From positions 62,001-126,000 of the forward strand of contig BBYL01000009.1 of NCBI GenBank assembly GCA_001570385.1: 64,000 nt of DNA. The letters run 5' to 3'. Positions 20,069-35,663 of the stretch are shown here, piece after piece (position 1 is the first letter of the stretch; the number at the start of each line of letters is the position of its first letter). The stretch is from Microtetraspora glauca. GTDB lineage: Bacteria; Actinomycetota; Actinomycetes; Streptosporangiales; Streptosporangiaceae. Both the position numbers and the translations under genes were made by a program. The notes beneath the pieces are model-generated. The model made no database searches and was not told where the DNA came from. It saw only the letters and a list, made by a program, of their open reading frames with translations.

Positions 20069-20572
20069 CACCGGTCCCTTGCTGCGGTCAGCGAGGAGTT
20101 TGGGCAGAAGCCGGGCGGTGCGGGTCTGCCAGACGATGATGTCGACGGCGCTGCCCTTGCGAGTGACGCGGGCGCGTCGGTTGCGCCGGTCCAGGTGTTC
20201 GATGTCCAGGTTGAGTATCTCGCTGGCGCGGGCGGCGGTCTCGTACAGCATCGTCCGCAGCGTTTTCTCCCGGAGTGGTGCCTCCAGGTTGAGCAAGGCC
20301 TCGATGTCGGCGACCGCCAGCGCGCGAGTGCGATCCGGGGCGCGGCCGCGCCGGCGGAGCCGCCGGGTCGGATCGGCCGTCAGCCATCCTTGGTCCATCC
20401 AGAAGGTCACCGCGGAACGTAGTGCGTCGAGGTGCCGGTTGGAGGTCGCGGGGACCCGACTGCTCCACTGGCGGATGAACCAGGTGGTGAGCCGGTCGAC
20501 GCCTGCTTCGTCATCGAGCTCGGCGAACCTCCAGGACCAGCGTGGTGTCGAGGCGCGAGAGCCGTACGTCGA
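20069..20572 (-). pseudogene. Truncated tyrosine recombinase/integrase, fused in frame to the permease remnant
   Basis: About 168 residues of a phage-type integrase: a SAM-like core-binding part (VPATSNRHLDALRSAVTFWM) and the beginning of the catalytic domain with the first Arg (LYETAARASEILNLDIEHLD). The sequence stops at SKGPV and, without a stop codon, becomes the permease (CFNELHWPIV). The HxxR box and the Tyr nucleophile are lost, so it is inactive. The fused frame is open from 20572 to about 19660, which could mislead automatic annotation into one chimeric protein. Confidence 0.75.
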
Positions 20573-20590
20573 TCCGCCGCGGTCCAGGCG

Positions 20591-21058
20591 GTGAAGACGC
20601 TCGTCACCGACGACAACAGCCGCGACTACGCGTGCGCCGTCGCCCACCTCGAAACCGCGCAGACCATCGCCGCTGACCACCCCAACAACCCGGCGTCGTT
20701 CTCCGCCCTCGCCGCGCACATCGACCACGCCCGCGAGCACCTCGACCACATCATCCACACCGACTGGGAGTTCAACGCCGCCAAGCGCCTGTCCGAACTC
20801 CGCACCCTCGCCACCGACTGGCTGAGCGCCGTCTCCGACGCCGACATCCGCGCCCTCGCCATCGGCCACGGCTTCCCCGCCGTCTACCTCGTCGGCACCG
20901 CCGTCGTCAGCGCCAACTCACTCCGCTGGTGGCCCAACCCCGGCTACGCGCCGAACACGGCAGGCAAGGACAACGCCATCAACGCCGCCCGCGAGCGCTT
21001 CACCAAGCGGCACCCCGACCTCGCCTACGTCTACGACGGAACCCCCTTCGTCGCCTGA
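20591..21058 (+). CDS. Hypothetical protein, 155 aa
   Basis: A soluble, His/Ala-rich protein starting at GTG 20591 (MKTLVTDDNSRDYACAVAHL). It contains the segment HIDHAREHLDHIIHTDWEF and ends YVYDGTPFVA. GC-rich third positions are consistent across the frame, supporting coding. No known domain is recognised. It is divergent from the integrase remnant, which suggests it was cargo of an integrated element. No clear Shine-Dalgarno sequence precedes the GTG, so the 5' end could have been lost at the junction. Confidence 0.5.
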   Translation: MKTLVTDDNSRDYACAVAHLETAQTIAADHPNNPASFSALAAHIDHAREHLDHIIHTDWEFNAAKRLSELRTLATDWLSAVSDADIRALAIGHGFPAVYLVGTAVVSANSLRWWPNPGYAPNTAGKDNAINAARERFTKRHPDLAYVYDGTPFVA

Positions 21059-21612
21059 CCCGGACGCAAACCCGCCCGCCCCGGCACCCTGCCGGGGCGG
21101 CCCCACCGGAAGGAACGCCGCTCCTGCGGCACGTACCGCCGGGGGAGGTCATACCGAGCAGACCGGCTCAGCGCTCTACCTCGCCGCGGTCAGACGGGAC
21201 CGGATCAGCCGCCATCCTTGGGTCCGGCGCCGACGAGGACGGCCAGGGCTACGCCGCGGCGATGGTCGCCCTCGCGGCGGCCCAGGCCGTGCAGCACGGG
21301 ACAACCGCGGCTGGCCATGCAGCGGGTCCGCCCGGCCCTGGCCGAGGCCCGCGCGAAGACAAGCAAGGCGCGCACGACGACCGGCATGGCACGCCCCCCG
21401 ACGGCGACCGGCCGCGATGGCGGTTGAGCCCGAAGAGGTCTCCCAGGCAGCTCTCCCCGCTGGCCCGCCGAGCGGCCGACCGGCAGAGCCAGGAGTAGAA
21501 CCTTGTATCGCTGCCCCGAGCCCCGTGCCTCCCAGCCGATCGACGTCGTCACGATCAACCGCTAAACAAAACAAGCTCTCAACTTCGATGAGCCACCATC
21601 GGTTGGGCATGG
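21059..21612. other. Stretch of about 550 bases without a supported gene
   Basis: Short open frames exist on both strands, but none shows a ribosome-binding site, a recognisable motif or consistent codon bias. A GC-rich inverted repeat near the end of the preceding gene (GCCCCGGCACCCTGCCGGGGC, about 21078-21099, given here as adjacent arms GCCCCGGCA and TGCCGGGGC) could terminate its transcript. The rest looks like decayed element DNA. Confidence 0.35.
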
Positions 21613-24238: not shown

Positions 24239-24265
24239 CTAGGGCGCGTATTCAGTTGTGATCAA
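24239..24265. repeat. Left target duplication and inverted repeat of the IS5-family element
   Basis: CTAG at 24239-24242 is followed by the left terminal repeat 24243-24265, beginning GGCGCGTATTC and ending TTGTGATCAA. It matches the reverse complement of 25316-25338 at 19 of 23 positions, with all four mismatches clustered at positions 10-13 of the repeat. Confidence 0.75.
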
Positions 24266-24800
24266 GGGATGGTCCGGGCGAGGTCTTTGATCCAGATCAT
24301 CGCGGCACGAAGGTGGAGACCGGCGAGGTAGCTCTCGGGAGTCTTGTCGTAGCGGGTGGCGATGCCACGCCATGCCTTCAGCTTGTTGATCAGGCGCTCG
24401 ACGGTGTTCCGCTCCTTGTAGAGGTCGGCGTCGTGACGGACGGGTCGGCCGCCTTTGCTGCCCTTCTTCTTCCGGTTGGCGGCCTGGTCTCTCTTCTCCG
24501 GGATGACAGCCTCGATGCGACGCTTCCGCAGATAAGCACGGTTGCCGCGGGAGGAGTAGGCCTTGTCCCCGGCAACCGCGTCGGGCCGGGTGCGGGGACG
24601 ACCGACGGGCCCCCGGACCCGAATCTTCTTGAGCACCGAGATGAACTGCGGGCTGTCCGCGGCCTGCCCCGCAGTCAAGACGAACGCCAGCGGGCGGCAC
24701 TTCCGGTCGGCGGCGAGGTGGATCTTGCTGGTCTGCCCACCCCTCGATCGTCCGAGCAGGGCAGCTTTCAGCCGGAGTTTGTGCCGACGCCGGATGCGTC
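24262..24800 (-). CDS. IS5-family transposase, second frame (DDE C-terminal part)
   Basis: The open frame runs downwards from about 24800 and contains GRSRGGQTSKIHLAADRKCR, PLAFVLTAGQAADSPQF, VAGDKAYSSRGNRAYLRKRR with a catalytic Asp, and ERNTVERLINKLKAWRGIAT with the catalytic Glu. It ends at 24262. There is no good start codon at its beginning. In this family the part is made by programmed ribosomal frameshifting from the first frame, whose 3' end overlaps it between about 24768 and 24800. No obvious slippery heptamer was identified. Confidence 0.8.
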
Positions 24801-25265
24801 GCCGTTCTTCCCGTTCGGGGTCATTTGCGGCGTCCTGGCCGTCTTGTCCTTCCGGGCCGCCCCCTTTTGCCGGGCCTTTTCCTCCTGCTCGGCGGCCTTC
24901 TCCAGGGCGGTGACGACGTCCTGGTCGAGGTGCATCCCGGCAGCGTCGTGGTGGGCCCGGGCGGTGGTGGAGTCGACGCTGACGAGGGACACGTCCACTT
25001 CACCGCGTTTCGCGGCTTCCGCGATCAGGCCCTCCAGCAGGGCTTCGAAGACGCCGGCGTCCCTCCACTGCCGGAAGCGGTTGTGGACGGTCGGCCAGGC
25101 GCCGAACTCCTTGGGCATCTCCCGCCACTGCGCGCCCGTTTTGAACCGCCAGATCACGCCCTCAAACTGCTGTCGCAGCCGCTCAGGGTAGGGGCCGAAC
25201 CCGCCGATTGGCAGGTAAGGCCTGATGAACTCCCACTCTTCGTCCGTCAGTTGAACCCGCGTCAC
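24768..25265 (-). CDS. IS5-family transposase, first frame
   Basis: A 165-residue protein beginning MTRVQLTDEEWEFIRPYLPI, with FKTGAQWREMPKEFGAWPTV typical of the DUF4096 N-terminal domain, and VSVDSTTARAHHDAAG carrying the first catalytic Asp. The start at 25265 (GTG) is just inside the right inverted repeat. A charged linker (KAAEQEEKARQKGAARKDK) leads to the frameshift region. Confidence 0.82.
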   Translation of the reverse strand: MTRVQLTDEEWEFIRPYLPIGGFGPYPERLRQQFEGVIWRFKTGAQWREMPKEFGAWPTVHNRFRQWRDAGVFEALLEGLIAEAAKRGEVDVSLVSVDSTTARAHHDAAGMHLDQDVVTALEKAAEQEEKARQKGAARKDKTARTPQMTPNGKNGDASGVGTNSG

Positions 25266-25315
25266 ACAAGACGACCTACCGGATCACATCCCCCCATACG
25301 GGCGGATCCCACAGA

Positions 25316-25342
25316 TTGATCACAATCCGATACGCGCCCTAG
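25316..25342. repeat. Right inverted repeat and target duplication of the IS5-family element
   Basis: The right terminal repeat occupies 25316-25338 (TTGATCACAA ... ATACGCGCC) and is followed by the CTAG copy at 25339-25342. Confidence 0.75.
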
Positions 25343-26319: not shown

Positions 26320-27060
26320 TCATACGGCGAGCGGCACCTTATCGAATGGACGCTGCTCGTACTCGGTCGGACTGAGATAGTCGAGAGCGGAGGGTCTCCT
26401 TCGGGTGTTGTAGCGGATGATCCATCGGAAGACGGCCAAACGGGCGGCGTTGGCGGTTAGCCAGTGCCGGGCCCCCTGAAGCGTCTCGCGTTTGAGGGTG
26501 GCGTTGAATGCCTCGGCCGCGGCGTTGTCGGCGCTGCTCCCCACAACACCCATCGATTGACGCACCCCGAGCCCCTTGCACAGGGCTGCGAACTCGGCGG
26601 AGGTGTATTGCTTGGGTTCAAGGGATCGGAGTGAAAGATCGCCCCGGTCAGGCTGCCGCGCGTCGCCTGGGCGGCCCGGAGTGCGTCTGCGACCAGCTCG
26701 GTGCGCATGTGATCGGCGATCGACCAGCCCGCCAAGCGGCGTGAGTGCAGGTCCAGCACGGTCGCCAGATAGAGGAACCACCGTCGGCCAGCGGCAGGTA
26801 GGTGATGTCGCCGACGTAGCGCCGGCCGGGCGCGGGCGCGGTGAAGTCACGCTGGAGCAGGTCGGGCACCTTCTGGTGCGACGGCTCGCTGACAGTGGTG
26901 CGCACCTTCCTGCGCAACCGCAGCCCGGCGATGCCGAAGACACGCATCACCCGTGTCACCCGCTTGCAGTTGACCTGCCGCCCCCGGGCACGCAGTTCGG
27001 CAGTGACCGGCCTTGGGGGCCATCGGTACAGCCGTTGGCGCAAAAAGCCCTTGATCATGG
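26320..27060 (-). pseudogene. IS3-family transposase (OrfB, integrase core), frameshifted and 5' truncated
   Basis: Three frames read in turn give an IS3 OrfB. From 27060: VTAELRARGRQVNCKRVTRV, MRVFGIAGLRLRRK and YVGDITYLPLADGG with a catalytic Asp. From about 26765: LDLHSRRLAGWSIADHMRTE. From about 26630: YTSAEFAALCKGLGVRQSMG, SADNAAAEAFNATLKRE with the catalytic Glu, and YLSPTEYEQR. At least two frameshifts are required. The 5' part and OrfA are missing; the serine recombinase gene begins 4 nt beyond. No terminal repeats were recognised. Confidence 0.82.
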
Positions 27061-27063
27061 TCG

Positions 27064-28056
27064 CTAGCTGCGGGTCTCCGCGTTCGGGTGGGGCTGGGCC
27101 TGGAGGCGTTCGCGGAGGTCGATCTCTTCGGGGGTGAGCGGGTCCTCGGGGCGGCGGATGCGTACGGGCTTGGGCCTGAGCGGCAGGCCGTCGTCCACCG
27201 TGGCGGCCTCGGCTTCGGCCAGGGCCCGGTAGAGCGAGGCGACCGATGGGGACTTGCCCGCGTTCTTCCCGACCTTGATGGTGAGTTTCTTTGCGATCTC
27301 GGGGACGGGGACGCCCTTGTCCTTGAGTGCGACGGCGAAGGTGAGCATGTCGTCGTCGATGACCTTCGGGCGTCCTCCGTGGTTGCCCTTGGATGCGGCG
27401 ATGACCTGGCCTTCGAGGGTCTTCTCCCGGATGTAGTCGCGCTCGATCTGCCCGGCGACGGCGAGGACAGCGAAGAACATCGCGCCCGTGCCGTTGGGGT
27501 CGTAGATGCCGGTGAGCGGGCCGGTGAGGAGTTCGAGCTGGATGCCGCCGGCCTGGAGTTCGGCGGACAGCGTCATCAGCTCGGCGGCGTTGCGGGCGAG
27601 GCGCTTGAGTTCGTGGACGGTGAAGATGACGGGGGTCTCGGGCGCGGCCTCCTTGAACTGGTGGGCCAGCGCGAGCGCCTTCTCCAGCTCGGGCCGGACC
27701 TTGACCCGGGTGCTGATTTGCTCGGAGAAGACTTTGTGGCACTCCGCCCGGCGGAGGGCTTCGAGCTGGCTCGCCAGTTCCTGCCGGGCGGTCGACGTGC
27801 GGGCGTATCCGATTCGCACCGGCCGCTCGGTGCGGGGCGCGGGCCCCTGCTTCCATGCGCGGCCGGGACCGCGGTCGGCGGGCACCGGGATCTCCAGTTC
27901 CTCGCGGAGTGCGGGGACGAGAACGAAGCGCGGGGTGTGGTACTTCGCGGCGGTCTTGCCGCCCCGGGTGCGGCAGGCGCTGCCGGCGGGCGCGTCACAG
28001 TTCGGGCAGTCGTGACGTTCTACCGCCAATGCGGCCTGATCGGGTGTCAAATCCAT
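27064..28056 (-). CDS. Serine recombinase (resolvase/invertase family) with N-terminal zinc-binding segment
   Basis: A 330-residue intact protein. Residues 17-40 contain C17, C20, C28 and H40 (CPNCDAPAGSAC ... YHTPR), a zinc-finger-like unit. The resolvase domain starts at residue 80 with RIGYARTSTARQ, where S88 is the nucleophile, and includes HELKRLARNAAELM and AGQIERDYIREKTLEG. A Hin-like helix-turn-helix follows (GKSPSVASLYRALAEA). It probably acts as the resolvase of the Tn3-type unit whose transposase lies at 30733-33635. The DNA just upstream has several repeated motifs that could be its site. The start ATG 28056 has only a weak ribosome-binding site. Confidence 0.88.
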   Translation of the reverse strand: MDLTPDQAALAVERHDCPNCDAPAGSACRTRGGKTAAKYHTPRFVLVPALREELEIPVPADRGPGRAWKQGPAPRTERPVRIGYARTSTARQELASQLEALRRAECHKVFSEQISTRVKVRPELEKALALAHQFKEAAPETPVIFTVHELKRLARNAAELMTLSAELQAGGIQLELLTGPLTGIYDPNGTGAMFFAVLAVAGQIERDYIREKTLEGQVIAASKGNHGGRPKVIDDDMLTFAVALKDKGVPVPEIAKKLTIKVGKNAGKSPSVASLYRALAEAEAATVDDGLPLRPKPVRIRRPEDPLTPEEIDLRERLQAQPHPNAETRS

Positions 28057-28059
28057 GAC

Positions 28060-28190
28060 GGCACTCTCTCAGAAGTGTCTCGCACAACGTGCGGGTTTCG
28101 AGAGGACTTTTGCGAATGGCCACCTGGTGAAACGTGACCGCTTCCGGGCCTCTCGCAGAACTCTCACAGATGACCATTTGTGAGAAGTGG
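28060..28190. other. Repeat-rich stretch upstream of the recombinase, candidate res site
   Basis: The motif AGAAGTG occurs at 28071 and again at about 28184. An inverted repeat TCTCACA (28162-28168) / TGTGAGA (28179-28185) lies at the right end, and further CTCGCA/CTCTCA half-sites lie between. Tn3-type resolvases bind three such subsites next to their own gene. The spacing is irregular, so this is a suggestion only. Confidence 0.25.
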
Positions 28191-28256
28191 GGCCCGGGCG
28201 CGTACTCCCGGACGAGACGTATGCGAGGGAACGGCACACCCCCGATGGAAGAAAAG

Positions 28257-28316
28257 TTAACCAAATGCTTGACTATTCGCTGCCGGCATCGAATAGTTAG
28301 GCGCATGCTTAACCAA
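28257..28316 (+). promoter_or_regulatory. ArsR-gene promoter with overlapping palindromic operator
   Basis: TTGACT (28269-28274) and AATAGT (28292-28297) are separated by 17 nt, a good sigma-70-type promoter. The palindrome ACTATTCG (28272-28279) / CGAATAGT (28290-28297) lies exactly over both hexamers, with a 10-nt centre. TTAACCAA repeats flank it at 28257-28264 and 28309-28316. The start codon at 28305 is only 7 nt after the -10 box, so the transcript would be leaderless. Autorepression by the ArsR-type protein is the natural reading. Confidence 0.6.
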
Positions 28317-28658
28317 GCTGGTTCGTTGGACCGGGTGTTCCAAGCGCTGGCGGACACAACTCGCCGGGAGATCGTTGCGCGGTTGATCCGCGGGCCTGCC
28401 TCGGTCAGTGAGCTGGCGCGGCCGCTCGCCATGTCGCTGCCGGCGGTGATGCAGCACCTACAAGTACTGGAGGCGTGCGGACTGGTCCGGTCCGAGAAAG
28501 CCGGAAGGGTACGCACCTGCCACATCGAGCCGGGTGTGCTGCGAATGGCCGAGGACTGGATCACTGCGCAGCGCACTGCCTGGGAACACCGCCTCGATCG
28601 CCTCGGCGACTACCTGACCGAACACTGCGACAGCCCAGATCAAGGGAGCACACAATGA
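28305..28658 (+). CDS. ArsR-type winged helix-turn-helix regulator
   Basis: A 117-residue protein of the ArsR/SmtB fold: FQALADTTRREIVARLIRGP, then the recognition helix region SVSELARPLAMSLPAVMQHL and the wing GLVRSEKAGRVRTC. No metal-binding Cys cluster is present, so it belongs to the non-metal group commonly paired with SRPBCC (AHSA1) proteins. ATG 28305 was chosen because the domain starts there and the promoter -10 box lies just upstream. The stop overlaps the SRPBCC start (ATGA). It probably represses the three-gene cassette. Confidence 0.88.
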   Translation: MLNQAGSLDRVFQALADTTRREIVARLIRGPASVSELARPLAMSLPAVMQHLQVLEACGLVRSEKAGRVRTCHIEPGVLRMAEDWITAQRTAWEHRLDRLGDYLTEHCDSPDQGSTQ

Positions 28659-29116
28659 CCGATCACGTGGTCACGCATGCCACGTTCACCCTCGAACGCC
28701 TCTACGCGGCCTCACCGGCCACAGTGTTCGCCGCGTGGGCCGACCCCGAAGCAAAGGCCCGCTGGTTCGCCGGCCCCGACGCCGAGCACGAGCTTGATTT
28801 CCGCGTCGGTGGGCGGGAGGTCAACCGCGGCCGCTCCGACAGTGGCGCGGTGCTGACGTTCTCGTCCTGCTACCGCGACATCGTCCAGGACGAGCGGATC
28901 GTCTACACCTCCACTCTGTCCGAGGGGCAAGACCTTGCGACAGTGTCGCTGACGACGGTGCAGTTCTACCCCGAGGGTGGTAGCACCCGGCTGCTACTCA
29001 CCGAGCAGGGCACCTTCCTCGATGGCCGCGAAGAACCACGCTGGCGGGAGCAGGGCACCGGCAAGTGGCTTGACGCGCTCGCCGCCGAACTGCTGCGAAG
29101 CATCAAGCAACAGTGA
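28655..29116 (+). CDS. SRPBCC (AHSA1-like) domain protein
   Basis: A 153-residue protein with the AHSA1/START-like fold: LYAASPATVFAAWADPEAKA, RWFAGPDAEHELDFRVGGRE and WREQGTGKWLDALAAELLRS. Proteins of this kind bind hydrophobic ligands in a deep pocket; in ArsR-linked operons their exact role is usually unknown. Translation is coupled to the regulator at its 5' end and to the MFS gene at its 3' end. AGGGAG lies just before the start. Confidence 0.88.
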   Translation: MTDHVVTHATFTLERLYAASPATVFAAWADPEAKARWFAGPDAEHELDFRVGGREVNRGRSDSGAVLTFSSCYRDIVQDERIVYTSTLSEGQDLATVSLTTVQFYPEGGSTRLLLTEQGTFLDGREEPRWREQGTGKWLDALAAELLRSIKQQ

Positions 29117-30579
29117 TGACCACGAGCGACCCTTCGCAGAATCGACGTTGGCGGGTGCTGGCGCTGCTGGGCACGGCGTTCTTCATGACCATTCTGGACG
29201 GCACCAGCCTGCTCACCGCTCTGCCCGCGATCGAACACCACCTTCGCCTGCACGGCCCTGCCATCCAATGGACCGTGACGGCCTACGCGCTGGCCTTCAG
29301 CGGACTGCTGTTGTTATGCGGCCGCGCTGCGGATCTGCTGGGCCGTCGGCGGGTGTTCATCGCCGGGATGGTGCTGCGGGTCCTGGCCTCGCTGGCGTGC
29401 GGGCTCGCTCCATCCATCCAGACCCTGGTGGCCGCCCGTGCACTCCAGGGCGTCTCGGCCGCGATCATCGCTCCGGCCACGTTGTCGATGGTCATGAACA
29501 CCTTCCCCGAAGGGACCGAGCGGAACAAGGCGCTCGGTATCTGGGGCGGACTCGGCGGGTTCGGCGCCACAGCCGGTCTACTACTGGGCGGCATCATCAC
29601 CGACATCCTCGGATGGCAGTGGGTGTTCTGGATCAACGTCCCGGTCGGGACTCTCGTGCTGGTGCTCGCCCCCGCCCTGCTGCGCGAAAGCCGGGACCGA
29701 GCACGCTTCCGTTCCTTCGATATCCCTGGTGCGCTGACCATCGCCCCAGCACTCGTCCTGCTCGTATACGTGATCACCCGGGTGCCGACATCCGGGTGGG
29801 CGAACGGACAGACCATCGGGCTACTGGCCGCCGTGGCCGTACTGGTCTGGATGTTCATCCTGATCGAGAAGCGATCGGTGGCCCCGCTCGTTACCTTCCG
29901 GGCGCTGCGCTCGCGCATGCTGATCGGCGGCAACATCCTCCTGCTCATCGCCGGCATGACCGTCGACGGCATGCTCGTCACCCTCACCTCTTTCGTGCAG
30001 CAGGTGCTCGGCTGGTCGGCGGCGCAGTTCGGGCTGGCGACCGCGATGATGACCGTCACCGCGGTCGCAGGCGCCCTGCTGAGCCAACGAGTCGTGACCA
30101 GGATCGGCCTGGGGCGGGTAGCTGCCGCCGGGACCGTTCTGCTCGGTTGTGGCTGCCTGCTGCTCACCCGCATACCGGCCAGTGGCGCGATGAGTCTTCT
30201 GCCGGCCGCCCTGTTCTTGTTCGGGGCGGGAATGGGCGCCGCCACGGTATGCGCACAGATCGCCGCGCTGACCGGCGTCACCGAAAAGGACTCAGGCATG
30301 GCCGCCGGCCTCGCCGACACCTCCTTCGCCGTCGGCACCGCCCTCGGCACCGCCATCTGCACCAGCGTCGCCGCCGCCCGCACGTCCGCGATCGGTGGTC
30401 CGACACCGCTCGCACTCACCACCGGGCAGCATGCCGCGTTTGGGGCAGCTGGCGTCTTCGCCGCTCTCGCCTTGATCACCGCGTTGACGCTCCTCAGCAA
30501 GCGATCCGGCCTATCCCGCAGTGTGTCGGCAGACGCAAGCGAGAACGTACCTACCAGGGCACCGTCAACCTCACCTTGA
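29116..30579 (+). CDS. MFS transporter, DHA2-type drug exporter
   Basis: A 487-residue membrane protein with about 14 helices. It shows motif C-like GTAFFMTILDGTSLLTALPA, QWTVTAYALAFSGLLLL, and motif A in CGRAADLLGRRRVF. Sequence and length match the EmrB/QacA (DHA2) group that exports drugs and organic cations with proton antiport. ATG 29116 overlaps the SRPBCC stop; GTG 29113 is the alternative. As part of an ArsR-controlled cassette inside a transposon-like unit it is a likely resistance determinant, ligand unknown. Confidence 0.9.
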   Translation: MTTSDPSQNRRWRVLALLGTAFFMTILDGTSLLTALPAIEHHLRLHGPAIQWTVTAYALAFSGLLLLCGRAADLLGRRRVFIAGMVLRVLASLACGLAPSIQTLVAARALQGVSAAIIAPATLSMVMNTFPEGTERNKALGIWGGLGGFGATAGLLLGGIITDILGWQWVFWINVPVGTLVLVLAPALLRESRDRARFRSFDIPGALTIAPALVLLVYVITRVPTSGWANGQTIGLLAAVAVLVWMFILIEKRSVAPLVTFRALRSRMLIGGNILLLIAGMTVDGMLVTLTSFVQQVLGWSAAQFGLATAMMTVTAVAGALLSQRVVTRIGLGRVAAAGTVLLGCGCLLLTRIPASGAMSLLPAALFLFGAGMGAATVCAQIAALTGVTEKDSGMAAGLADTSFAVGTALGTAICTSVAAARTSAIGGPTPLALTTGQHAAFGAAGVFAALALITALTLLSKRSGLSRSVSADASENVPTRAPSTSP

Positions 30580-30732
30580 TCTACGGGACACACCCTGGCT
30601 CCCTCCTGGCGTGATTCCTGTTCCGCATTCCATGGAGGGCCGGACCCGAATCCGGCGACAAGGCCCCAGCCTCACCAGCGAACCCCTGCGCCGAGGTCCT
30701 CGGTGTCGCTGCGGGTGCGGACGGCACCCGGC

Positions 30733-33635
30733 TCACTCCTCCTCTCCGTCGTCATCGTCGAGGTCGACGGCGTCCGGGTCGCGCAGGGGCCGCAGGCCAT
30801 CGACGGGCTGGGAGGCGGTGAAGCTGTAGCGGCCCAGGCAGTTCAGATTCTTGTGCTTGAGCGGGGACAGCCGGGCGATGTCCTCGTCCCTGGTGTCGTG
30901 GCCCTCGGCGCGCAGCTGGGCGACGGCGGCGTCGATGTAGCGTGTCGTCCACAGGACTACCGCGTTCAAAACCAGTCCCAGTGACCCTAGTTGATCTTCC
31001 ATTCCGTCCCGGTAAGCCTGGTGGATGGTGCCCTTCTTGCCGTGGCAGATGCGGACATGGCTGGTGACCAGAGAGCCGGCCACCCGCAGCATGTCCGGCC
31101 ACGCGGTGAGCACCTTCTTCACGTTCACCTTGCGCGCGATGGCCTCCAGCGGCCCGTACCCGCCCACCGTCTCGGCGCCGAGCATCTGGGCCTTCCAGAA
31201 TCGCTGGTCCTGAAGGTCCTTGAAACGCGGGGAGAAGCGGTAGCCGAGCATCTTGAAGATGCCGAACACCATGTCCGAGTAGGATGCGTTGTCAGTGGCA
31301 ACCATCTCCGGCTTCACCCCGCCTGCAAAGCGTCCAGGATGAACAGCGAGTCGCGCGGGGTCCCGGGCACCACCATCTGCCCGATCCCGATGACCTGGTC
31401 ATTGATCGCGTTCAGCCAGGTGATGCCCTTCTTCTTCGCGAAGTACTTGGGGCTCGGAGATGCGTTGATCGTGCGGACGGGGACGACGAAGCGCAGGCCG
31501 TCGACGGAGGCGAGCAGCCCCTTGCCCCAGAACTTGACGACCGGCACCTTCGCCTGGGCCTCGATCAGGGCGGCGTTCGCCGCGGCGATGGTGTCGGCGC
31601 GCCAGGTAGTACTGGTCGACGTGGACCAGACGGGAGCGGGTCAACGCCTCGGAGTTCGGGTTGATGACCGGGGTCATCCCGATGTTGCACGCCTCGCTCA
31701 CCAGCAGCGCCACCACGGAGGTGGTGAGGTCCTTCATGCGGGTCTTGCCGTCGCCCAGGTGCACAAAGGCGTCCAGGAACCCGGTCCAGGCATGCACCTC
31801 GAACAGCAGGTCCGGCAGATCGACCTTCGGGAGCATCTTCTCGACCCGTTTGCGCAGCCAGTTCAGCGACTTCGGCTCACCCAGCGCGTGGAGCTTCTCC
31901 ACGTTCAGCTTCGCCCGCCCATTGGGCTGCACCTCGACGCTGATCTTCGCGTCGGCGCCGGCCTCCTCCAGCCGCTCGGCCATCTGCTTCCACGCTGCGT
32001 CCAACACCTCGACCAAGTCCTTGAGATGCTGCTCGGCGTCCTCATCCAGGCTCAGGCCCGCCAGGACATCCTCACGCACCGCCTCCCACTCCTTGCCCTG
32101 AAGCAGGCGGGCACGCGGGTCGGACCAGCGGTGCGAGGGGGAGGCGTAGATGTCGCGGCGCTTGAGCGCCCAGAAGAGCTGCTCCAGCACGCAGACCACG
32201 TACGCGTCCCGGTCCACTGCTCCCTCCGGCAGCTCCGCGTTCGCATACACCGCCTACGCCACGCGGGCGGCACCAGCTTGTCGTCAATCTCCCGCGGGAG
32301 CAGCGGCTTCTCGCTCACCCTCCGGCGGGCCAGAGCCGGGAGCCGCTGCACCCCGGTCAGCACGCGCCTGCCACCGGTCGCCGCCCCGAGCATGGAGCTC
32401 TCGCCCAGCAGCGACAGGAACGGCCTTACTGTGTTGTAGCGCAGCGCCAGCGCGCTACGCATGGCGCTCTCCGCGGAGTCGTCGTCCTCCGGCACCAGGC
32501 TCACCACCGTGGCCGCCGCGCTGGACAGCTCGGCGCGGGGCGCGATCTCCTCCAGCAGCTCCAACTCCTCGATGAACACCTTCGAGACCCTGGCCGTGAT
32601 CCGAGCCGCTCTCTCCAGCTGCGGCAGCGTCGAGAGCCGTTCCTTGTCCGTGGCCAGCTTCGCCCGGTTGATCAGCCTCGTCGCCATCAGCAACTCGAAC
32701 AGGTCCAGCGCGTCGTCGATCGCCTTCGCCTCCAGGTGGCGCATCACCGCGGTGAGCATCGCCTTGCGCTTCGGCTCCGACGTCCGCTCCAGCTTCGGCG
32801 CCTTCGTGCCCAGCCCGTACCGGGCCAGCGCAGCCAGCCGGTTCGGCGGGACCTTGTTCAGCTTCACCCTCCCCAGCTGGAACGCGGCGATCTCATCGAC
32901 CCGTTGCAGCGCAGCCTTCATCGCAGTGCCCGTGGTCCTCGTCGGCGGCCGGCGCAGCGTCTCCAGGTACGAGTACCGCTTGCCCTCCGGCGTCTTCAGC
33001 GTGGCCACCAGATCACCGGGCAGAGCCGGGTCGGCCCGGCGTGCGGCCTTGGCGACCGTGATGTGCAGCCGCTTCTCCGCGGCCATACGAACCTCGGCCA
33101 CCTGCCGCGCCAGCACCGAGACGCCCGGCAGCAGCACCCGGTTCCGGCGTAGCCAGCCCACCGCATGGTCGAACAGCGCCTTCGGCCCCTCCGCGTGCGC
33201 CGTCCACGCCCGCCCGTGCAGGAACGCCCGGAACTTCCGGCCCATCGCATGGTCCTCGAACGGGTGGCAGCCGTACGCGTCGCGGATCTCCCACGCATGC
33301 TCGTACGCCGTCTTCAGCCGCTCGGTGTACTCCTTGACGCAGGAGACATCCTCGATCCCCAGCTGCTCGGCCAAGTGTTCCACCACCGGCCACGGCACAT
33401 CCAGAGGGTCCTCCAGGAACAGCCCGATGGACCGGACCATGCAGATCTGGAGGGCGAAGCCAAGGCGATTGTGATCCCCGCGCCGCTTCGCGATCAGCTT
33501 TCGGTCCTCGTCATCCAGGAAGAAGAACCGCTCCAGCTCAGGCTTCGTCGGCTCCTCAGCGAACTTTCCGTACGCCTCAGCCTGCTCATCAGATAAGAAT
33601 TCGACCGCCACGCCCGGACCGTAGCCAGGCCCCAC
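30733..33635 (-). pseudogene. Tn3-family transposase (TnpA), about 967 codons, three frameshifts
   Basis: Four consecutive reading frames together give a full-length TnpA. 33635 to about 32258: FLSDEQAEAYGKFAEEPTKP to EKPLLPREIDDKLVPPAWR. Then to about 31605: VYANAELPEGAVDRDAYVVC to LVHVDQYYL. Then to about 31320: MPVVKFWGKGLLASVDGLRF with ILDAL. Then to 30733: VKPEMVATDNASYSDMVFGI, HVRICHGKKGTIHQAYRDGM and LNCLGRYSF. The catalytic Asp/Glu residues lie in different frames. The third break also lacks about four codons. The protein cannot be made without repair. Confidence 0.9.
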
Positions 33636-33903
33636 CCATGATCGAGGATCTTTCCCTGAACCCCAGCACCGGACCGGATCACTGTGTTAGGTGACCAAGA
33701 TCAACTGCTTAGCCAACGGCTGTACCGATGGTCCCCATGGCCGTACCTCCTGCCCGCAGCACTGGACGCTCTCACGCAGGCGATACATCCACGGCCTGAA
33801 GCCACCCACTCCCGCAGGGGGCTTAATGTCACTGGCCGTTCTATTGCTGCTCAAGCCGCGTGACCCACATCTTCCTTAAGCGTCACACCAGGTTACTTCG
33901 CGC

Positions 33904-34161
33904 TTGGGCGTAGCTTCGGGAGTCCTGGGCCATGCCGAGCGGCAGCGCGAGGCCCTCACCGCGGCTTACGACGCTTGGGTGCTCGCCATCACCACCACGG
34001 CGGAGGATGCCCGAGCCCGTGCGACCCGAGCCGAGTCGGAGGTTGACGCGGAGCGGGCCGAGCGGCTCAAGGTCGCGGAGCGGGCTGAGCGGCTGCAGGC
34101 GGAGCTCGACCGAATGCGCGCCGCCGAGGAGATCCCGGCGCGTGGCCGCCGGAAGGAGTGA
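33904..34161 (+). CDS. Small coiled-coil protein, possibly a gene remnant
   Basis: About 85 residues, mostly Ala/Glu/Arg heptads: TAEDARARATRAESEVDAER then KVAERAERLQAELDRMRAAE. The frame opens at a TAA at 33877, and the only start is TTG 33904. After the stop at 34159-34161 the same frame continues with plausible protein sequence (WAALAKAAERARGRGLPLQL) to about 34296, so a nonsense mutation in a longer gene is possible. The style resembles the coiled coil of the next gene, of which it could be a duplicated fragment. Confidence 0.35.
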   Translation: MGVASGVLGHAERQREALTAAYDAWVLAITTTAEDARARATRAESEVDAERAERLKVAERAERLQAELDRMRAAEEIPARGRRKE

Positions 34162-34469
34162 CCGCGAACGACGCCGTTCACCTGTGACCGGTGGGCGGCG
34201 TTGGCGAAGGCGGCGGAGCGGGCCAGGGGCCGCGGCCTGCCGCTGCAGTTGGTGATGGTGCGACTGGCGGTCGAAGAGCTGTTCCCCGCGCCGTAGAGCC
34301 CCGCCCCAGGCCCCGTCTCCAGGGGAGGCTCCCACCTGTTTCGCGAGTGCGCAAGGTCACTTGCGGGAATTAACAATCTCCCAAGTGATCCACATGAACC
34401 GGCGCGCAAGATTTCGCCGTTTTTGATTATTGGTTTCCAGAAATCCAGAAATTGCTAGAGTGATCGCCC
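34162..34469. other. Intergenic stretch of 308 bases
   Basis: The left half may be an in-frame continuation of the preceding broken frame. The right half (about 34350-34465) is clearly AT-richer (TTTTTGATTATTGG around 34420) and is the likely promoter region of the long coiled-coil gene. Confidence 0.35.
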
Positions 34470-35663
34470 GTGACGACCTCTCCGGCGGCGACGCCGTGCA
34501 AGCACTGCGGCATGCCCATCGAGCAGCGGACCGGCCGGGGGAGACCCCGGGAATACTGCGCGGAGGGCGACTGCCAGTCGGCGGCCAAGCGCGAGCGCGA
34601 ACTGCGCCGCGCGACCCCGGGACTCGAAGGCGCGCTGGCCCGGGCCGAGGATCTCTACGAGCGCATGGAGAAGGGCCTGGCCGCCGCGATCACACCGCTC
34701 GCACAGGTGCTGGCCGACGAGCTCAGCCCCGCCGGGGTTGAGGCGAGGCTGAGCGCGGTCCAGGCCGAGGCGCACACCCGCGTCGCCATCGCCCGCACCG
34801 AGCGGGAGCAGGCGTTCGAGCAGGTACGGCTGGCCCACGAGGCGACCGAGGAGGCCAGGAGGGAGACGGAGGAGGCGCGCCGCCGGACCGAGGAGGCCCA
34901 CGCCGAGCGTGACACCGCGTTCGCCGACGCGGAGACCGCCAGGGAACAGGCGCTGGCGGCGCTGCGCGAGGCCGCAACGACGGAACGGGTGGCCAGGCAG
35001 GCGGCCGAGGAGGCCCGCAAGCGGGCCGATCTGGCCGAAACCGCCAGGGACCAGGCGCTGCACGAACTCGCCGAGCACACCGAGCGGGCCTCCGCGGAGG
35101 TACGGCAGGCGCAGGCGGACGCCGCACAGGCGAACCAGGAGCGTGAGCGGGCCCAGGCCGAGGCGGTCGGCGCCCGCGCCGAGGCGGAGATGGCACGGCG
35201 CGCGCACAGGGAGGCCGAACAGGCCAGTGCGGCGGCCATCGCACGGGCCCACGCGGCCGAGGCCGAGCGTGACCGCGCCGTCACCCGCGCCGACGGCGAA
35301 CGCGACCGGGCGGAGGCTGCGGAGTCGGCCCGCGCGCTCGCGGCCGCGGAGACCGCGCGCGCCCAGGCAGAGGCCGCGCGGGCCGGGGCGGAGGCGCGTG
35401 CCGCGGCCGAGGAGCTGGCCAAGGCCGCAGACCAGGCCGGTACGGCCGCCGCTGAGCGGGAGCGGCTGCAGGCGGAACTCGCCCTGGAGCGGGCACGGAT
35501 GCAGGATCTCCGGGCGCAACTCGACGCGGCCAGGGCGGAGGCGGCGCAGCTACGCGAGCGCGCGGTCGCGGCCGAGTTCCGGGCGAGGCACCACGAGGAG
35601 GGGGCCACCGGGAACGCGAACGCGGGCGATCAGGGCCAGGCCGAGGCCCCCGGGGCGCGCTGA
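34470..35663 (+). CDS. Long coiled-coil protein with N-terminal Cys4 motif
   Basis: A 397-residue protein. Residues 10-35 carry C10, C13, C30 and C35 (CKHCGMPIEQ ... REYCAEGDC), a zinc-ribbon-like unit. Residues about 60-385 are almost uninterrupted Ala/Glu/Arg heptads, forming a rod of roughly 300 residues. No membrane helix is present. The layout (small DNA-binding head, long alanine-rich rod) resembles KfrA-type plasmid proteins and other actinobacterial coiled-coil DNA-associated proteins. A role in DNA organisation or partition is inferred only. GTG 34470 has no strong ribosome-binding site. Confidence 0.7.
   Translation: MTTSPAATPCKHCGMPIEQRTGRGRPREYCAEGDCQSAAKRERELRRATPGLEGALARAEDLYERMEKGLAAAITPLAQVLADELSPAGVEARLSAVQAEAHTRVAIARTEREQAFEQVRLAHEATEEARRETEEARRRTEEAHAERDTAFADAETAREQALAALREAATTERVARQAAEEARKRADLAETARDQALHELAEHTERASAEVRQAQADAAQANQERERAQAEAVGARAEAEMARRAHREAEQASAAAIARAHAAEAERDRAVTRADGERDRAEAAESARALAAAETARAQAEAARAGAEARAAAEELAKAADQAGTAAAERERLQAELALERARMQDLRAQLDAARAEAAQLRERAVAAEFRARHHEEGATGNANAGDQGQAEAPGAR

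Follow-up and report, generated by a model that had tools for sequence, protein, structure and literature searches.

A very probable decayed transposon of an actinobacterial Tn3-family subgroup with an efflux-type operon between res and tnpA in Microtetraspora glauca

In the genome of Microtetraspora glauca, a serine recombinase gene, a three-gene cassette and a broken Tn3 transposase gene lie side by side. This raises the question whether they form a single transposon, where its limits are and how the cassette came to lie inside it. We analysed a stretch of 64 kb around these genes (the window, to which all positions refer unless another locus is named). The initial annotation had proposed a Tn3-like unit with the order resolvase, res, cargo and transposase, and relatives with the same order, with ends and with 5-bp duplications bear this out. 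Based on our data, 27008-33743 is very probably a decayed element from an actinobacterial subgroup of the Tn3 family with a variable slot between res and tnpA, which is filled here by a self-contained efflux-type operon.

Results

Limits and ends of the element

The element extends from 27008 to 33743, and both limits are marked by terminal inverted repeats:

27008..27047 (+), left terminal inverted repeat with the tip CGGCCTTGGGG; inner box altered
33708..33743 (-), right terminal inverted repeat; inner box 2 bp short
26320..27007 (-), fragment of an IS3-family transposase (rve_3/rve_2), truncated by the left end of the transposon

The segments 27008-27039 and 33712-33743 are 94% complementary over 32 nt, while the other longest inverted pairs within the same 10 kb reach only 72-79%. 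The statement of the initial annotation that there were no convincing terminal inverted repeats is therefore superseded by this pair, although at that stage it had rightly kept the limits undefined. As proof of the unit it had named a 35-45 bp match between the borders together with a 5-bp duplication; matching ends are present, but the duplication is not, as the outer 5-mers are unequal (GTGAC on the left, TACCT on the right). A gapped alignment of both ends comprises 55 columns, and comparison with the 38-bp repeat of the relatives gives 32/38 ungapped, with damaged inner boxes on both sides. Among 250 family genomes, the family end is present in ten including that of M. glauca itself, and a reversed control pattern gave 0 matches.

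Similarity to IS3 ends at 27006-27011, beside the left tip (12 plasmid matches listed), and a looser pairwise alignment with two of these 12 extends to 27026-27034. The missing half of the IS3 gene had no match in the own genome in a search run without a positive control. The right flank (33744-34460) matched nothing among the plasmids but the family end itself, and its last ~100 bases match all three same-genus genomes searched.

Relatives, target duplications and tip sequence

In a blastn search of 72,556 plasmids, 26900-33850 had matches in 348 records, 276 of which belong to Streptomyces. From 30 matches listed, we inspected 19 plasmid relatives and used 13 for the comparison of modules. 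The common order is end, serine resolvase, res, cargo, oppositely oriented Tn3 transposase and end. In all 13, the recombinase and tnpA modules match the window and the intervening stretch does not. The initial annotation had named a separation of recombinase and cassette from Tn3 transposases in all relatives as evidence against the unit; for the recombinase, these 13 relatives show the opposite.

The inverted repeats of the relatives are 38 bp long and mostly finish with CGCTAAG, CGCTGAG or CGGTGAG; the inner box of the Tn3-family element Tn4430 ends in CGCTAAG as well. With the tip set at CG, exact 5-bp duplications flank 11/16 elements, in comparison to 0/16 for each of 16 other offsets. 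Locus L131, which has two candidate left ends and was tested separately, adds another duplication, giving 12/17 elements overall. This count leaves out L020, whose left flank is too short, L027, in which the outer end on the left has diverged, L128 and L129, in which we found no pair of ends, and the single-end loci L031-L037.

The CG at the tip is found in all mapped relatives except for the damaged right end of L028, with variants such as CGGCC, CGCCC, CGGGT and similar. For the Tn3 family, the outer box 5'GGGGT is described as highly conserved (PMC9579193). Where GGGG is present in the ends of the relatives, it begins at position 8, and it is absent there in L024-L026. Ends beginning at GGGG were rejected, since in GGGG-bearing elements the sole offset with 5-bp duplications lies 7 bp further out. 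The outermost tip of the window element and its subgroup hence lacks GGGG(T), a feature that we regard as highly conserved rather than defining.

The own genome also contains an unrelated second Tn3-family element (L148 3215-11010, corresponding to C9:148215-156010), with ~40-bp ends starting GGCCCCCCACTCGGG, ACGGC on both flanks and a tnpA spread over several frames. Its tip is likewise without GGGG, and such tips are therefore not unique to the subgroup described here.

Besides complete elements, the family ends occur in other settings. L020 (2771-2820) and L028 (2767-2816) each carry two near-copies of the transposon end head to head within the cargo region, ~50 bp in size and resembling a miniature end-only element. 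L031-L037 have one good family end each and no TnpA or TnpR match nearby; perhaps they are solo ends or small non-autonomous elements. Left of the window element, a 1.1-kb stretch (24240-25342), whose longest plus-strand frame has no Pfam match, is 85% identical to one that the L017 element carries between its left end and its tnpR.

One insertion or a hybrid of two elements

Identity between the left and the right end of the window element is 0.85, and either end reaches 0.85-0.875 with the ends of other elements. An argument for one insertion from the match of the window ends was therefore dropped. As the duplication is absent and the ends are no more alike than to those of other elements, a single insertion is not proven, and the data are compatible either with one insertion that later lost one of its flanks or with a hybrid of two elements. 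In the latter case, two neighbouring family copies in the same orientation would have recombined, at res or by homology, with deletion of the interval and one end retained from each. We regard this as possible, though it is not the explanation that we favour. Apart from the ends and the absent duplication, it would fit the different flanks, with IS3 on the left and nothing recognisable as IS3 on the right. However, an adjacent deletion or an intramolecular transposition would be a simpler loss with the same outcome, and spacing and gene order are normal. The duplication is also missing in 5/17 relatives, which the hybrid would likewise accommodate.

Decay of the transposase

The transposase gene is broken:

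30733..33611 (-), tnpA pseudogene of the Tn3 family with pieces of PF13700 and PF01526; three frameshifts, two in-frame deletions

The family assignment is based on these two domains in the window pieces and on the intact TnpA of L016, which scores 826 bits with NF033527 (cut-off 500). Alignment with the latter places frameshifting indels near 32256, 31603 and 31324, in agreement with the three frameshifts reported at the outset, and adds two in-frame deletions that had been missed, one of 48 nt (near 32556) and one of ~190 nt (near 31051). The larger one removes L016 residues ~873-937, including the stretch aligned with E881 of Tn4430 (residues D679/D751/E881; PMC9579193), and would thereby take out the presumed catalytic glutamate.

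Missing duplication, damaged inner ends and broken transposase together make the window copy look immobile on its own. Mobility with an intact subgroup TnpA supplied in trans has to be considered as well. L030 (1526-6850) has the subgroup ends and a 5-bp duplication (GAGAA) around an MFS gene, a regulator-like frame and insertion-sequence-like frames, with neither a TnpA match (at 1e-8) nor a TnpR match; family ends can therefore probably be moved in trans. For the window element we nevertheless consider this unlikely, because both of its inner boxes are damaged and the own genome offers no intact TnpA of this subgroup: of its Tn3 pieces (11 PF01526 matches, four of which are the window's own), those outside the window resemble the subgroup only as short fragments. 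Within 30 kb past the right edge of the window, several Tn3 transposase remnants of different subgroups are located on the same contig (C9 129662-154226).

Resolvase, res and the cargo slot

The left module and the adjoining slot comprise the following features:

27064..28056 (-), tnpR, serine resolvase with an N-terminal zinc-finger domain (PF00239 6.4e-24, PF24623 2.3e-11)
28060..28186, res region, from repeats and an alignment with 11 relatives; conservation ends at the border of the last dyad
28162..28185, putative res site I, TCTCACAGATGACCATTTGTGAGA; dyad in the window and 11 relatives
28187..30723 (+), cargo slot, without similarity to the transposon relatives and occupied here by the operon

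For tnpR, dN/dS is 0.09-0.14 in comparison with five near relatives and 0.44 with L021; the zinc finger was found in 5/10 relatives' recombinases scanned. The repeats seen earlier beside the recombinase gene turned out to be the res region, as ~130 bp ahead of tnpR are conserved in 11 relatives up to a dyad of the TCTCACAGATGNNCATTTGTGAGA type at 28162-28185. We take this dyad to be res site I because of its position at the far end from tnpR, as in the general layout of Tn3 res regions. A resolvase with a PF00239 domain and adjacent conserved dyads are thus both present, as expected for Tn3, and recombination at this site is predicted (for the res layout see also PMC7157771).

In relatives spanning it, the left module has its border at 28185-28192, and the right module begins at 30724-30764; the most distant relative, L027, aligns over 27344-27816 only. 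With the left module ending at the res dyad and the right one beginning close to the stop codon of the transposase gene, the operon sits in a slot of varying content. The relatives carry MFS and TetR genes (L016), a SpoIIE phosphatase (L018), a protein kinase (L019), an alpha/beta hydrolase (L020, L028), merB and a regulator (L021), ABATE/MBL/ester cyclase genes (L022), DUF305 and copper-binding proteins (L023) or an ABC transporter with a two-component system (L026); further relatives carry others, and the cargo of L017 is unannotated. The sharp border may mark no more than the limit of functional conservation. According to PMC7157771, passenger genes are generally located at a distance from the transposition module unless they are toxin-antitoxin pairs, and measured against this description a slot of varied content directly at res is a notable departure.

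The cargo operon

The slot of the window element contains three genes and a putative control region:

28256..28313 (+), putative promoter-operator, TTGACT 36 nt ahead of the arsR ATG within nested inverted repeats
28305..28658 (+), ArsR-family regulator (HTH_20 5.7e-12; NF033788; nearest solved chain 3f6o)
28655..29116 (+), SRPBCC (AHSA1-like) protein (PF08327 3.1e-20; nearest solved chain 3q64)
29113..30579 (+), DHA2/EmrB-like MFS efflux transporter (PF07690 4.9e-49; nearest solved chains EfpA)

All three frames are open, as already noted in the initial annotation, and neighbours overlap by 4 nt. With TIGR00711, the transporter reaches at best 197.1 bits and stays under the cut-off of 230.2; EfpA structures match at 1.5e-52. 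TTGAC is found at -36/-37 from the arsR start inside inverted repeats in 12/12 loci (window and 11 others; L051 left out), and these conserved nested repeats around TTGACT are suggestive of autorepression by ArsR.

Spread of the operon and selection

A tblastn search with the MFS protein yielded 80 loci that were kept, 12 of which have ArsR, SRPBCC and MFS together (L038-L042, L044-L046, L048, L050, L051 and L073, the last with a partial MFS). At the DNA level, the cassette is 96.8% identical to L038 (Microtetraspora malaysiensis), 94.3% to L039 (Streptomyces sp. MJM8645) and 88.2% to L040 (M. fusca). L039 retains the junction of cassette and tnpA, L040 that of res and cassette with the outer half of res site I, and L038 has tnpA 3' fragments to the left of the cassette. 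The cassette, too, is thus not always found apart from the transposon. Next to the right flank, the window encodes a long coiled-coil-like protein (34470-35663) with no Pfam or NCBIfam match; L048 has a DNA relative of it at 20506-21405, ~9 kb past its copy of the cassette.

These data also bear on the idea that the operon is native to the chromosome and just happens to be flanked by unrelated remnants of transposons. Cassette DNA matches (E<=1e-100) in 27/297 family genomes and 17/68 genera, several over ArsR-SRPBCC only, and many Streptosporangiaceae-type genomes thus have it without this backbone. We nonetheless judge a native operon very improbable, as it fits exactly between res and tnpA and one junction each is retained in L039 and L040. 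In addition, the cassette shares 97% identity with a different genus and 94% with a Streptomyces, but 89% with the same-genus genome G118, which its coordinates indicate to be that of M. fusca; this pattern fits transfer of the cassette better than descent. A second intact copy within a complete element of the subgroup was not found; in L048 a 37% TnpA adjoins the cassette, but a search for paired ends there found none. L040 further bears the cargo-side half of res site I, with similarity beginning ~1 base from the dyad centre. Conceivably, though this is doubtful, the CG-tip subgroup exchanges its cargo when the resolvase recombines res site I, with the cargo-side half-site travelling along.

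In six comparisons, dN/dS was 0.10-0.26 for ArsR, 0.31-0.40 for MFS and 0.32 to 1.37 for SRPBCC, where the top value stems from very few changes. With a neutral expectation from site counts alone, the branches of L039 (18 N/23 S, p=1e-4) and L038 (6 N/13 S, p=2e-4) deviate, and the comparisons point clearly to purifying selection on the operon across relatives. The initial suggestion of selection for the cassette consequently holds over the clade; on the window's own branch it cannot be shown (5 N, 4 S, p=0.21 on the same expectation), and this part was dropped.

Discussion

In the favoured reading of a decayed subgroup member, TnpA would pair two 38-bp ends and transpose the element by the replicative (cointegrate) route of the family, generating a 5-bp duplication, and the zinc-finger resolvase TnpR would resolve the cointegrate at res. 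ArsR most likely binds the nested repeats that cover the -35 box and thereby represses its own promoter. A hydrophobic small molecule is the most likely ligand of the SRPBCC protein, and this ligand would be exported by the DHA2-like pump. In the window copy, the transposition machinery is probably dead and the operon is still open.

Among known systems, Tn4430 is comparable with regard to its TnpA (structures 7qd4-7qd8), which is similar over residues 24-1031, and to its 38-bp ends (PMC9579193). It differs in that it is described with the tyrosine recombinase TnpI (PMC7157771) instead of a serine resolvase and with a GGGGT outer box (PMC9579193) instead of CG tips. Tn4556 of Streptomyces fradiae, compared by its published description, is a Streptomyces class-II element with 38-bp ends, 5-bp duplications and two passenger genes between tnpA and tnpR; in contrast, PF00589 is reported for its TnpR and a position beside the right end for its res (PMC6403206). 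PMC7157771 likewise describes foreign genes in the module beside res, in Tn3-family elements whose toxin-antitoxin genes adjoin it, whereas here the res-side position is used by pumps, merB, kinases and hydrolases. A literature search of titles and the starts of abstracts, with subscription papers mostly outside its scope, gave no description of the subgroup, its end sequence or the cassette.

The element is ordinary in kind, and its points of interest are the variant tips and the cargo slot on the res side. With these data, limits, ends and cargo slot are now given for a Tn3 subgroup found on plasmids, whose cargo in actinomycetes includes pumps, mercury genes, kinases and hydrolases. Judging from its sequence relatives, the cassette appears to be an efflux-type operon common to different actinomycete orders, and the subgroup is a test case for how strongly a Tn3 transposase depends on the bases at the tip.
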